The translations under genes and the position numbers were made by a program. From Ferrovibrio sp. MS7 (GTDB taxonomy: Bacteria > Pseudomonadota > Alphaproteobacteria > Ferrovibrionales > Ferrovibrionaceae): a DNA stretch of 64,000 bases. Positions 59,485 through 64,000 of the stretch are shown one piece after another. Position 1 is the first letter of the stretch. Each line of letters begins with the position of its first letter. The notes beneath the pieces were generated by a model that saw only the letters and a list, made by a program, of their open reading frames with translations, was not told where the DNA came from and did no database searches. The stretch covers positions 2,508,001-2,572,000 of the forward strand of contig NZ_JBBKBA010000001.1 of assembly GCF_038404985.1 (NCBI RefSeq), written 5' to 3'.

Positions 59485-61836
59485 ATGACCCTGGACCCTG
59501 CCGTAAACGATCCATCCGCTAAGCCCGCCGGGACAGCCCCCGGGGTGCTGTTATGGCGTCGCCTGGTCGCCTGGATCGCGCGCCACCGGGTGATGCGCTA
59601 TTTCGAGATCGCCGTCGCGGTTTCAGCCCTGGCGCTCGGCATTGTCACCTATGTGGCGATGACCCCAGGCGCGATGCGCGAACTCAGCCCGCGCGAAATC
59701 CAGTTCATGCTGCTCTCCGACCTGGTGGCCCTGCTGGCGCTGATTGCCGTGGTGGCGCGCCGCCTGGTGATGCTGTGGATGCAGCGCCGGCGCGGCGCGG
59801 CGGGTTCGCGTCTGCATGCCCGGCTGGTGGTGATTTTTGCCGTGCTGTCCTCGCTGCCGGCGGTGTTGATGTCGGTGTTTGCCGTGCTGTTCTTCAGCCT
59901 CGGCCTGCAAACCTGGTTCAGCGACCGTGTGAACACGGCGGTGAAGGCATCGGTGGCGGTGGCAGAGGCCTATTCCCAGGAGCACCGCAAGACGATCCGC
60001 GCCGATATACTGGGCATGGCGGTCGATCTCAACCGTGAAGCCTCGCGCCTGGGGCGCAACCCGATCCTGTTCCAGCAGGCGGTGCTCACCCTGGCCCGGC
60101 TGCGCGGCCTGGGCGAGGCCATGGTCTTCACCTCGACGCGCGAAATCCTGGCCCAGACACGGCTCGGCATGCAGTTCGACCTGGATCAGATCACCGATCC
60201 GATGCTGTTCGATGCCGCCAACGGCCAGCTTGTGTTTATCGCTGCTGACTCCGACGAGCGCGTGCGCGGCCTGATCAAACTCGATGGCTTCGTCGATGCC
60301 TTCCTCTATGTCGGCCGCTTCATCGACCCGCAGGTGCTGGCCAACCTGGATCGCACCCGTGCGGCGGCCGCGCAATATAACCGTCTGGAGCAGGAGCGTT
60401 CCGGCCTGGAAGTCCGCTTCGCCGGCCTGTTCATCCTGGTATCGCTGCTGCTGCTGCTGGCCTCGATCTGGCTCAGCCTCACCATGGCCACCCGGCTGGC
60501 GACGCCGATAGGCGAGGTCGTATCCGCCGCAGAGCGGATCAGTACTGGCGAACTTGGGGTGCGCGTTACCGAACAGCCGGGCGAGGACGAGATCGGCAAT
60601 CTCGGTCGTGCCTTCAACCGTATGACGGGCCAGCTTGCGGCGCAGCAGGCACAGCTCATCAGTGCCAACCGCCAACTCGACGAGCGCCGCCGCTTCACCG
60701 AAACCGTGTTGGCTGGTGTCTCGGCTGGTGTCATCGGCGTTGATCTCAGCGGCAAGGTCACGTTGCCGAACCCTTCTGCTCTGCATCTGCTGGAGGCCGG
60801 GTTCGACGATGTGGTGGGCAAGCCGTTCATTGATGTGGCGCCCGAGATGGCGCCCCTGTTTCTGCAACTTCGAGATAATCCCGCCGAACAAGTCGCACGC
60901 GGTCAGGTGGTGGTTCAGCGTGGCGAAGCGCCGCGCAGCCTGCTGGTCCGCGTGGCGCGCGAGATCACTGGCAATGAGCTGCTGGGCTACGTCGTCACCT
61001 TCGATGACGTAACTGAACTGATGGCGGCGCAGCGCAATGCCGCCTGGGCCGATATCGCCCGGCGCATTGCCCATGAGATCAAGAATCCGCTTACCCCGAT
61101 CCAGCTTTCCGCCGAGCGGCTGAAGCGCAAGTATCTCAAGGAAGTCAGTACGGATCCGGAGATCTTCGCGCAATGCACCGATACTATCATTCGCCAAGTG
61201 GGTGATATCGGCCGCATGGTGGATGAATTCTCCGCCTTCGCCCGCATGCCGCGCCCGGTCTACCGCGAGGAAGACCTCACCCAGATCGTGCGGCAGTCAG
61301 CGTTCATGCAGCAGGTGGCGCGCGGCGATATCGGTTTCGAGAGCCGTTTCCCGGCCGATCCGGTGCTGCTGAAATGCGATGCACGGCAGATTTCGCAAGT
61401 GCTGACCAATGTGCTGCAGAATGCGCTGGATGCCATCGATGGCCGCGAACGCCGCGAGGATACCGCATTGCCGCCAGGCCGCATCCGGATCGAGTTGCGG
61501 CTGGAACAGGCCGAGGCGCAGCTTCTGATCTGCGACAACGGCAAGGGCCTGCCGGCGGAATTGCGGGGCCGGCTATTCGAGCCTTATGTGACGACGCGTG
61601 TCAAAGGCACCGGCCTCGGCCTTGCCATTGTGAAGAAGATCATCGAGGAGCATGGCGGCCAGATCACGCTGGAGGATGCCCGGGCGTTTGATCCGGAAGC
61701 GAAAAGTGGTAGTTTGGCGCGGATTCGATTGCCGCTCATGCCCGCCATCGGGCAGCAGCAGGGGGGCGGCGCCGAAACCACGAACCATATCGAGACGACG
61801 AAGCAGATGGTTGGCGTGAGCAGTCATGGCGCGTGA
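59485..61836 (+). CDS. ntrY: Nitrogen regulation sensor kinase NtrY
   Basis: A 783-residue membrane histidine kinase. Helices near residues 30-60, 75-95 and 112-140 precede a periplasmic part with LGMAVDLNREASRLGRNPILFQ. A further helix at about 310-330 (LFILVSLLLLLASIWLSLTMA) leads to HAMP (PIGEVVSAAERISTGEL), a PAS domain and the kinase core with His530 in RRIAHEIKNPLTPIQLSAERLKRK, then NVLQNALDAID and GTGLGLAIVKKI. It pairs with NtrX and is linked to nitrogen, redox or envelope control. Confidence 0.95.
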   Translation: MTLDPAVNDPSAKPAGTAPGVLLWRRLVAWIARHRVMRYFEIAVAVSALALGIVTYVAMTPGAMRELSPREIQFMLLSDLVALLALIAVVARRLVMLWMQRRRGAAGSRLHARLVVIFAVLSSLPAVLMSVFAVLFFSLGLQTWFSDRVNTAVKASVAVAEAYSQEHRKTIRADILGMAVDLNREASRLGRNPILFQQAVLTLARLRGLGEAMVFTSTREILAQTRLGMQFDLDQITDPMLFDAANGQLVFIAADSDERVRGLIKLDGFVDAFLYVGRFIDPQVLANLDRTRAAAAQYNRLEQERSGLEVRFAGLFILVSLLLLLASIWLSLTMATRLATPIGEVVSAAERISTGELGVRVTEQPGEDEIGNLGRAFNRMTGQLAAQQAQLISANRQLDERRRFTETVLAGVSAGVIGVDLSGKVTLPNPSALHLLEAGFDDVVGKPFIDVAPEMAPLFLQLRDNPAEQVARGQVVVQRGEAPRSLLVRVAREITGNELLGYVVTFDDVTELMAAQRNAAWADIARRIAHEIKNPLTPIQLSAERLKRKYLKEVSTDPEIFAQCTDTIIRQVGDIGRMVDEFSAFARMPRPVYREEDLTQIVRQSAFMQQVARGDIGFESRFPADPVLLKCDARQISQVLTNVLQNALDAIDGRERREDTALPPGRIRIELRLEQAEAQLLICDNGKGLPAELRGRLFEPYVTTRVKGTGLGLAIVKKIIEEHGGQITLEDARAFDPEAKSGSLARIRLPLMPAIGQQQGGGAETTNHIETTKQMVGVSSHGA

Positions 61837-63214
61837 CATTCTGATTGTCGACGACGAAGCGGATATCCGCAACCTGATCGCTGGCATCCTGGAGGATGAG
61901 GGTTATGAAACCCGCATGGCCGGCGATTCCGATGCCGCTCTCCGCGAAGTTGACTCTCGCCGCCCCAGTGCCGTGATCCTTGATATCTGGTTGCAGGGTA
62001 GCAGGCTCGATGGCCTGGAAATCCTTGACCGCATCGCTCGCGATCATCCCAATGTGCCGGTGATCATCATTTCCGGTCATGGCAATATCGAAACCGCTGT
62101 GTCGGCGATCAAGCGTGGCGCCTACGATTACATCGAGAAGCCGTTCAAGAGCGACCGCCTGCTGCTGCTGGTGGAGCGCGCACTGGAGCAGGCCCGCCTG
62201 CGCCGCGAGAACGAGGAACTGCGCCAGCGTTCCGGCAGCATCACCGAGATGATCGGCCATTCGCCGGCGATCAACGCACTGCGTCAGGCCGTGGAGCGGG
62301 TGGCGCCAAGCAACAGCCGCGTGCTGATTTCCGGCCCGCCGGGTTCCGGCAAGGAACTGGTGGCGCGGCTGCTGCACGCCCGTTCGCGCCGTGCCGGCGG
62401 CCGGCTGGTAGCGCTGAATGCGGCGGCCATGACGCCGGACCGCATGGAAACCGAACTGTTCGGCGTTGAAGAGGCCAGCGGCGGCTCGCATCGCGTCGGT
62501 GTGCTGGAAGAAGCCCATGGCGGCACGCTGTTTCTTGATGAAGTGGCTGACATGCCGCTGGAGACCCAGGCCAAGATCCTGCGTGTGCTGACCGAGCAGA
62601 GCTTCGAGCGCGTTGGTGGTCGCACCCGCGTACAGGTGGACGTGCGCGTGGTCAGCGGCACCAGCCATGATCTTGCCGCCCGGGTGCAACAGGGCCTGTT
62701 CCGCCAGGATCTCTATCATCGCCTCAATGTCGTGCCGCTGAAGGTGCCCGCGCTTCGCGACCGGCGCGAGGATATTCCCGAACTGGCCAAGTATTTCGTG
62801 CATTTCGAGGCCCAGCGTCAGGGCGTGCCGGAGCGTGAACTGGCCGAGGATGCGCTGCTGGCGCTGCAATCGGCGGAATGGCCGGGCAATGTGCGCGAGC
62901 TGCGCAATGCCGTGGCGCGGCTGCTGATCATGATGCCGGGCGAGCAGCGCGGCGCCATCCATGCCGACATGTTGCCGGCCGATCTTGGCGCCACGCCGCC
63001 AGTGGCTTTGCGGCCCGAGACCACCACGGAAGTGATGGCGCTGCCGCTGCGCGATGCCCGCGAGGTGTTCGAGCGCGAATACCTGCTGGCGCAGATCACC
63101 CGCTTCGGCGGCAATGTTTCGCGCACCGCCAGCTTCATCGGCATGGAACGCTCCGCGCTGCACCGCAAGCTCAAGGCGCTGGGTGTTGCCAATCTCGACC
63201 GCAACGGCAGCTAG
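61826..63214 (+). CDS. ntrX: NtrX response regulator, AAA+ type without GAFTGA
   Basis: A 462-residue regulator paired with NtrY. The receiver has Asp53 (VILDIWLQGSRLDG). The AAA+ domain has GPPGSGKE and [13 protein letters not shown]. Where NtrC has GAFTGA, this protein reads ELFGVEEASGGSHRVGVLEE, so the sigma54-contacting loop is absent. A Fis-like C-terminal helix-turn-helix is present (GGNVSRTASFIGMERSALHRKL). It overlaps the ntrY 3' end by 11 bases. It may act without RpoN or as a repressor. Confidence 0.93.
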   Translation: MARDILIVDDEADIRNLIAGILEDEGYETRMAGDSDAALREVDSRRPSAVILDIWLQGSRLDGLEILDRIARDHPNVPVIIISGHGNIETAVSAIKRGAYDYIEKPFKSDRLLLLVERALEQARLRRENEELRQRSGSITEMIGHSPAINALRQAVERVAPSNSRVLISGPPGSGKELVARLLHARSRRAGGRLVALNAAAMTPDRMETELFGVEEASGGSHRVGVLEEAHGGTLFLDEVADMPLETQAKILRVLTEQSFERVGGRTRVQVDVRVVSGTSHDLAARVQQGLFRQDLYHRLNVVPLKVPALRDRREDIPELAKYFVHFEAQRQGVPERELAEDALLALQSAEWPGNVRELRNAVARLLIMMPGEQRGAIHADMLPADLGATPPVALRPETTTEVMALPLRDAREVFEREYLLAQITRFGGNVSRTASFIGMERSALHRKLKALGVANLDRNGS

Positions 63215-63265
63215 GCCATGAAGGTGATCGCGCCATGAAAGTCATCGCGCCATGAAAGTCATCGT
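63215..63265 (+). repeat. Triple 17-bp tandem repeat carrying the trkA start codon
   Basis: Three consecutive units begin at 63215, 63232 and 63249: GCCATGAAGGTGATCGC, GCCATGAAAGTCATCGC and GCCATGAAAGTCATCGT. Units 2 and 3 differ at one base, unit 1 at two. Each carries an ATG, and the third is the real trkA start. Because the period is not a multiple of three, each ATG is in a different frame. Confidence 0.9.
63218..63255 (+). promoter_or_regulatory. Two tandem six-residue minicistrons (MKVIAP) in front of trkA
   Basis: ATG 63218 opens MKVIAP and stops at TGA 63236-63238. ATG 63235 opens an identical MKVIAP and stops at TGA 63253-63255. Each stop overlaps the next start as ATGA, the last one giving the trkA start at 63252. 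Ribosomes leaving ntrX (stop 63212-63214) could thus re-initiate stepwise to reach trkA. The peptides are seen; translation is not proven. Confidence 0.5.
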
Positions 63266-64000
63266 TTGTGGCGCCGGCCTGGTTGGCACCACCATCGCCC
63301 GGCAGCTTGCTGCCGAGGGCAATGAAGTGACGGTAATCGACCAGTCGGCGGAGCAGGCGCATAAGGTTGCCGAGACCTACGATCTCCGCTCCATTGTCGG
63401 CCATGCCTCGCATCCGGATGTGCTGGACCGTGCCGGTGCCGCCGATGCCGACATGCTGATCGCGGTGACCTATGCCGACGAGGTCAACATGATCGCCTGT
63501 GAGGTCGGCCGCGCCATTTTCAAGGTGCCGACCAAGATCGCCCGTATCCGCGCCCAGAGCTATCTGAAGCCGGAATGGTCCGATCTGTTCAATGGCGAGA
63601 ATATCTCCATCGACTACATCATCTCGCCGGAAATCGAGGTGGCGCGCGCGATTCACCGCCGCATCCTGACGCCTGGCGCCTTCGACATGATTCCCTTCGC
63701 CGGTGACCGTCTGCGCTTGATCGGCGTGCGCCTGGAAGAAGAATGCCCGGTGCTGAACACGCCGCTGCGCCAGCTTACCGAGCTGTTCCCGGACCTCAAC
63801 ATCAATGTCTGCGGCATCGTGCGCAACGACGAGATGATCGTGCCCGAGGCCGACGATCACATGGAGGCGGGCGACGAAATCTATTTCCTCGCCATGACCA
63901 GCCATGTGCAACGCGCCATGCGGCTGTTTGGCCATGAGGAGCGCGAGGCGCGGCGTATCGTGCTGGCCGGCGGCGGCAATATCGGCCTGTTCCTGGCACG
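63252..64000 (+). CDS. trkA: Trk potassium-uptake NAD-binding protein TrkA (partial, runs off the window)
   Basis: The first 249 codons are present. The protein begins MKVIVCGAGLVGTTIARQLAAEGNEVTVID, a Rossmann RCK_N domain, then VGHASHPDVLDRAGAADADMLIAVT. An RCK_C domain follows (GVRLEEECPVLNTPLRQL ... EAGDEIYFLAM). A second RCK_N begins at the window end (RRIVLAGGGNIGLFLA). TrkA gates the TrkH/G potassium channel by nucleotide binding. It follows ntrX directly, as is usual in alphaproteobacteria. Confidence 0.94.
   Translation, partial: MKVIVCGAGLVGTTIARQLAAEGNEVTVIDQSAEQAHKVAETYDLRSIVGHASHPDVLDRAGAADADMLIAVTYADEVNMIACEVGRAIFKVPTKIARIRAQSYLKPEWSDLFNGENISIDYIISPEIEVARAIHRRILTPGAFDMIPFAGDRLRLIGVRLEEECPVLNTPLRQLTELFPDLNINVCGIVRNDEMIVPEADDHMEAGDEIYFLAMTSHVQRAMRLFGHEEREARRIVLAGGGNIGLFLA

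Follow-up and report, generated by a model that had tools for sequence, protein, structure and literature searches.

At the ntrX-trkA junction of Ferrovibrio sp. MS7, the start region of trkA is present three times in tandem, and the two upstream copies form short putative cistrons that each end on the start codon of the following copy. On balance, and by a small measure, we lean towards reading this array as a duplication born of replication slippage that would preserve the coupling of trkA to ntrX through successive stop-start steps. We infer that ribosomes use the array and that selection has retained it in this species. A one-step version of the array, present before trkA in members of two other families, hints that it is more than accident.

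The trkA start region is triplicated behind ntrX

The stretch of DNA analysed here, the window, comprises 64,000 nucleotides. Reading the sequence directly, we found three 17-nt units in tandem at the ntrX-trkA junction (63214-63264, 51 nt in total; Table 1). TRF called positions 63215-63264 with a period of 17, 2.9 copies, 93% matches and a score of 86, the second among the 64 TRF rows in the window; dinucleotide shuffling of the window, repeated 60 times, gave no score above 72. An earlier note on this DNA had described a 17-bp unit repeated three times, which both the sequence and TRF confirm, the first unit being the divergent one.

Each unit carries one ATG (ATG1 at 63218, ATG2 at 63235 and ATG3 at 63252). 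Minicistrons of six codons start from the first two, at -34 and -17 relative to the trkA start. Their TGA stops share 4-nt ATGA overlaps with the next start at 63235-63238 and 63252-63255, just as had been claimed. The two minicistrons had also been called identical; this holds for the peptide, MKVIAP in both, but not for the DNA, which reads AAG GTG in minicistron 1 and AAA GTC in minicistron 2. Where unit 1 departs from the other two inside the frame, it does so only in the third base of a codon (AAG/AAA and GTG/GTC). With 3 nt from the ntrX stop to ATG1, compared with 37 nt from that stop to the trkA start, and two 4-nt ATGA steps thereafter, the geometry of the putative relay can be read from the sequence as the earlier note proposed.

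Table 1 Features at the ntrX-trkA junction and further arrays in the same genome
Feature	Position	Strand	Remarks
ntrX, NtrC-family response regulator	61826..63214	+	stop TAG 63212-63214; Pfam Response_reg, Sigma54_activat, HTH_8
Unit 1	63214..63230	+	older, diverged; begins on the final base of the ntrX stop; 14/17 compared with units 2 and 3
Minicistron 1	63218..63238	+	MKVIAP; begins 3 nt past the ntrX stop; TGA over ATG2
AGGTGATC, Shine-Dalgarno-like	63222..63229	+	within minicistron 1; ends 5 nt before ATG2
Unit 2	63231..63247	+	identical to unit 3; TRF
Minicistron 2	63235..63255	+	MKVIAP; TGA over trkA ATG
Predicted 10-bp RNA hairpin	63247..63274	+	trkA ATG in the 5' arm
Unit 3	63248..63264	+	carries the trkA start; TRF
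trkA	63252..63998	+	start ATG3; extends beyond the window end; Pfam TrkA_N, TrkA_C
Other arrays whose period is not divisible by 3	L130 8578, L131 18316, L132 1737, L132 8166		TRF

The identity of the upstream gene as NtrX-like agrees with an NtrY_N kinase (Pfam) encoded upstream of it, and the ORFs downstream of trkA resemble what we take to be dat, hfq and hflX. An ATG at 62878 opens a frame of 125 codons (62878-63255) that runs off-frame through the end of ntrX, is continuous with the frame of minicistron 2 and ends at the TGA over the trkA ATG; in DNA this rich in GC, we regard it as an ORF that arose by chance.

Three other possibilities were ruled out. An upstream in-frame alternative start of trkA is excluded, since the trkA frame contains no ATG, GTG, TTG, CTG, ATT or ATC between its stop at 63225 and ATG3. 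A dispersed repeat is excluded by an exact-match search of the own genome with the unit pattern written with AAR GTS, which returned two matches, both inside the array, and no dispersed copies. An assembly artefact is excluded by an independent conspecific assembly that carries the same array.

The array is confined to one species of the genus

Among ten genomes of the genus, the array occurs in two that represent one species, namely the own genome and that of Ferrovibrio sp. Gw_Bodden_bin_214 (G001; L001/L034). The remaining eight have no array and a single trkA start. The records of these relatives carry the name Ferrovibrio, and the order-level sample consists of the same 18 genomes as that of the family and added nothing. 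Four of the Ferrovibrio sisters (L008, L015, L037 and L111) carry other short frames that end on the trkA ATG (MAAS, MVAP, MGRLA and one GTG-started frame).

Around the junction, 61 of 3747 aligned bases (1.6%) distinguish the two conspecific genomes, none of them within the array; at this divergence, the absence of changes in 51 nt is expected and needs no selection. Both genomes have three units (n = 2), which leaves unsupported the earlier suggestion that copy-number changes tune TrkA. A contingency locus, in which slippage would alter the number of units among strains, can point to the identity of units 2 and 3, which implies that one of the events was recent or that something keeps the copies uniform. 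We nevertheless consider such a locus very unlikely: the unit number is the same in both conspecifics despite their divergence, an array of three is short for fast slippage, and no genome with two or four units was found in the places searched.

Stop-start overlaps come free with the unit length

When a start region whose ATG is followed by A is duplicated with a unit length of 2 (mod 3), a TGA falls on the next ATG unless an earlier stop intervenes. The ATGA overlaps are automatic under these conditions and are therefore not independent evidence for a function. This is one of the points in favour of a neutral tandem duplication, in which the final copy preserved an intact trkA and any effect of the minicistrons escapes selection: a unit of 17 nt belongs to the one in three unit lengths that give the overlaps for nothing. 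The two wobble differences of unit 1 likewise fit synonymous drift of trkA, in that the true start may have drifted after a first duplication and then have been duplicated a second time, which would require no selection on the peptide. The eight sister genomes, moreover, manage without the array.

Short tandem arrays as such, of 15-24 nt, are also not rare in this genome. In 444 kb of it, including the window, four other arrays with a TRF score of at least 70 have a period not divisible by 3 (Table 1). Two arrays of the own genome span the stop of a predicted ORF. One (L132 8166-8229; G000:C1:2480001-2500000) has four 16-nt units with a TGA in each and forms a mirror image of the start array; the other (L130 3344-3399) has 24-nt units in 2.3 copies, again with a TGA in each.

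Copies of gene starts behave differently from arrays in general. In the own-genome sample, none of 265 predicted starts has a copy matching at least 11 of 12 bases within 80 nt upstream. Among 183 ntrX-trkA junctions, a copy of the first 12 nt of trkA was found only in the window and in L215, where it is weak and distant (10/12 bases, 63 nt upstream). As discussed below, this rarity is set against a recurrence at trkA, and we regard the neutral account as rather unlikely overall.

A one-step version precedes trkA in two other families

A pattern of two MKV-type start cassettes, run over 385 genomes of the class, matched 17 places, compared with 5 for the reversed pattern. The evaluation of cassettes covers 8 of the 17; the rest had no 60-codon ORF from either ATG in the sequence retrieved or no match to the pattern used for the evaluation. 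Among the listed places, the long-ORF ATG under the cassette stop was that of trkA three times, in the own genome and in one genome each of two families (G368, family f42; G397, family f91). Of the other such places, one is at a presumably hisH-like gene, and at one the cassette may belong to the 3' end of the preceding gene. By a rough estimate that assumes equal base frequencies, fewer than 0.1 trkA places would be expected by chance.

In genus g268 of family f42, three genomes (G368, G477 and G478) carry an MKVTGP minicistron at trkA, while the four of genus g165 in family f91 encode MKVIAR (G397 and G501), MKVLIR (G503) and MKAPTR (G502). In all seven the minicistron starts exactly 17 nt ahead of trkA, its TGA overlaps the trkA ATG, and it begins 4 or 7 nt past the stop of the upstream ORF. 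This ORF was identified as ntrX from its position, its length and a short motif rather than from Pfam. The four g165 genomes have trkA genes that are 87-95% identical and a 24-nt spacer that differs at 3-8 sites; start, length and overlap of the minicistron are retained in all four despite codon divergence. The spacers of the three g268 genomes are alike at 23-24 of 24 positions, too similar to judge retention of the frame.

The distribution of this version is narrow. Neither the 11 other f42 genomes nor the 7 other f91 genomes for which trkA was fetched have an ATG minicistron at -17, and the g268 genomes G476 and G479 are also without one. Class-wide, the fixed 17-nt pitch at trkA was found only in G368, G397 and G501 (3 of 384 genomes, largely the same as those of the pattern search), which shows that the architecture is rare. 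In G195, a g165 genome of 1.5 Mb whose ntrX stop was not found, MKFMLK is encoded at -17 and may be there by chance. A similar arrangement exists at another gene in G115 (L249), where an MKVAP minicistron lies 14 nt upstream, likewise with an ATGA overlap, of a gene that presumably is hisH-like.

These observations are where the neutral account meets its difficulties: for all the rarity of start-region copies, the 17-nt pitch recurs at trkA in two more families, the minicistron stays open in four diverging g165 genomes, and three of the listed cassette places with a stop over a long-ORF ATG belong to trkA. The simplest reading is that the array and the one-step versions have three separate origins. 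A broader proposal, which we put forward tentatively and rate as somewhat short of probable, is that self-bridging duplications arise repeatedly from the start region of trkA. A copy of the 17-nt cassette would have been gained between ntrX and trkA in no fewer than three lineages of Alphaproteobacteria, the 2 (mod 3) pitch would turn it into a re-coupling minicistron, and frame and overlap would be selected rather than the peptide, with the window species having gone one step further.

Upstream ATGs tend to stop on the trkA start

We also asked in which frame ATGs occur in alphaproteobacterial ntrX-trkA spacers. The counts cover ATGA starts of trkA only and spacers of 3-65 nt (frame sets) or 11-65 nt (bridging and pooled counts), with dereplication at a similarity of 0.70 or 0.60; neither the window nor its conspecific L034 was included. 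In a first set (79 loci; L039 and L097 were left out, having no trkA start in the locus), 9 of 13 ATGs upstream of trkA lay in the stop-start frame (one-sided binomial P 0.009). A second set, drawn as a check on the first (102 of 107 loci; L138, L143, L144, L154 and L241 dropped), gave 12 of 20 (P 0.013), and both sets together gave 21 of 33 (P 0.0004). In the pooled untargeted spacers, 23 stop-start ATGs compared with 12.8 in shuffles (5/1000), and 13 ATGs in the other two frames with 26.7 (0/1000). These counts suggest that off-frame ATGs running into trkA are avoided and that those stopping on the trkA start are somewhat favoured.

Predicted gene starts of the own genome served as control. 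ATGA starts (75 genes) showed no such bias, with 17 stop-start ATGs against 22 and 4 in the other frames, and non-ATGA starts (190 genes) gave 58 against 27 and 13; the latter, odd counts make us suspect wrong start calls in the control. At these loci, the starts of ntrX and dat provided too few cases for a control.

A spacer was counted as bridged when a minicistron starts at most 10 nt from the ntrX stop, with its own end in reach of trkA. For this count 215 loci were taken and 211 kept (4 were without an upstream stop), and 4 more that were uncertain were left out. ATG minicistrons bridged 13 of 72 dereplicated untargeted spacers of 11-65 nt, compared with a mean of 6.6 in dinucleotide shuffles, of which 7 in 1000 reached 13 or more. 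Under stricter dereplication the excess was weaker (8 of 43 compared with 4.1 shuffled; 24/1000). Adding the targeted loci raised the count to 16 of 77, a number biased by their mode of discovery. The other 59 of the 72 spacers are unbridged, so coupling is not required everywhere.

A Shine-Dalgarno-like site and a predicted hairpin at the trkA start

The only strong Shine-Dalgarno-like pairing of the three starts lies in front of ATG2. For AGGTGATC, the predicted duplex with the 16S tail has an energy of -6.9 kcal with a 9-nt tail and of -13.4 kcal with a 13-nt tail, both calculated with a presumed tail. With the same presumed 9-nt tail, the values are -2.6 kcal for ATG1 and +0.3 kcal for ATG3, the trkA start. 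Pairing at eight sister trkA junctions ranges from -4.8 to -8.1 kcal. A search for the 16S rRNA gene in the own genome (99.9% complete) found none, the search being positive in 9 of 14 control genomes; rRNA may be masked in this genome copy.

The predicted hairpin over ATG3 has an energy of -13.8 kcal (z -1.97), and 8 of 200 shuffles were equally good. The trkA start is predicted to be unpaired with a probability of 0.08-0.11, and ATG2 with 0.32, which makes it mostly paired; AGGTGATC is predicted to be half paired (0.46). Predictions of a sequestered trkA start were not consistent in relatives.

Together, these features could describe a ribosome-loading leader, in which AGGTGATC recruits ribosomes to ATG2 independently of ntrX and a ribosome translating minicistron 2 unfolds the hairpin and arrives at trkA, much as in engineered bicistronic designs. 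The exclusive strength of the site before ATG2 and the predicted pairing of ATG3 are what this account would explain. We judge it improbable, however: the Shine-Dalgarno-like letters are merely the codons for K-V-I, the site is itself half paired and ATG2 mostly paired in the predicted structure, and the pairing depends on the presumed tail. Moreover, no comparably strong site precedes trkA in the one-step relatives. In g165 the pairing is -2.2 kcal for the minicistron and +0.3 to +0.4 kcal for trkA, neither having a Shine-Dalgarno sequence, and in g268 it is -3.8 kcal before trkA.

A proposed stop-start relay from ntrX to trkA

In the reading we favour, a coupling preserved through stop-start steps, replication slippage would have copied the trkA start region twice, possibly with the ATCG that closes each unit as microhomology. 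Given the 17-nt unit and a second codon that begins with A, each copy would become a six-codon minicistron stopping on the next start. A ribosome finishing ntrX would restart 3 nt on at ATG1, terminate at the TGA over ATG2 and restart there, and do so once more at the TGA over ATG3 to enter trkA. In this way trkA, which is 37 nt off and lacks its own Shine-Dalgarno sequence, would remain coupled, every step being within termination-reinitiation range. Such a relay could, as the earlier note suggested, set the NtrX:TrkA ratio. Comparative support comes from the 17-nt architecture at trkA in the two other families, from the frame bias and from the excess of bridging minicistrons in ntrX-trkA spacers; the restriction of the array to a single species speaks against it. 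According to a study on six native gene pairs, a distance of about 20 nt nearly abolishes coupling and reinitiation declines steeply (PMC10666635); a bare gap of 37 nt should therefore uncouple trkA. AGGTGATC before ATG2 may provide a second ribosome entry, and a ribosome on minicistron 2 would open the hairpin over ATG3.

If this is true, a simple rule would follow, by which the start-region duplications that survive are those that place a stop on the next start. The junction would also represent a natural two-step minicistron chain, with zero-, one- and two-step relatives for gauging reinitiation steps.

Relation to known systems

The array is a variant form of known stop-start coupling, and its nearest analogue is MIRU, a mycobacterial repeat family with tens of base pairs per unit. 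MIRUs are described as mobile repeats that, according to a review, insert at start codons, the repeat's ORF being coupled to the gene at -4 nt (PMC12548453), and the founding report (Supply 1997, cited in PMC12548453) names a two-component system operon in its title. The likeness is one of geometry alone, as the repeat ORF of the array meets the next gene at the same -4 nt. Unlike a MIRU, the unit has 17 nt, occurs in an alphaproteobacterium and is a copy of trkA's own start at one genomic place, as judged from the exact-match pattern; identity with MIRU is ruled out on these last two grounds.

Literature searches returned no paper whose title or abstract start describes a duplicated start cassette or a minicistron between ntrX and trkA; one paper contains all of the words ntrX, trkA, operon and hfq (PMC2848018). 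The TAACTGA heptamer repeats of Beggiatoaceae are, like the array, tandem and immediately before start codons, but their unit contains stops and no start codon, and 169 sets are reported from one genome (PMC4679880), compared with one array here. The enrichment of A at the fourth site, by which ATGA traps off-frame ribosomes (PMC5850271), offers a general reason why stop-start-frame ATGs are harmless, but predicts neither duplicated starts nor an excess of minicistrons close behind the previous stop.

Leader genes and minigenes are a further comparison. Short untabulated ORFs nearby are proposed to raise translation through reinitiation (PMC4833913), and a two-codon minigene influences the translation of txe (PMC8708949). 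The six-codon ORFs of the array similarly lie directly upstream of a structural gene, their translation being putative here; leaders and minigenes are single, whereas the array repeats the start of its own target gene in tandem and lies between two genes of an operon. In the engineered bicistronic design, a coupled second cistron is fed by a short one ahead of it (PMC5995908), as it would be in the array, but the array is natural and its Shine-Dalgarno-like site consists of the duplicated gene's own codons.

The geometry is that of ATGA-coupled gene pairs. Termination-reinitiation coupling at -4 nt ATGA overlaps has been described (PMC10666635; PMC6728339), and the array has both the 4-nt stop-start overlap and the distance logic in common with these pairs. 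It differs from them in that its overlaps belong to duplicated six-codon minicistrons, two of which are chained between genes that do not themselves overlap.
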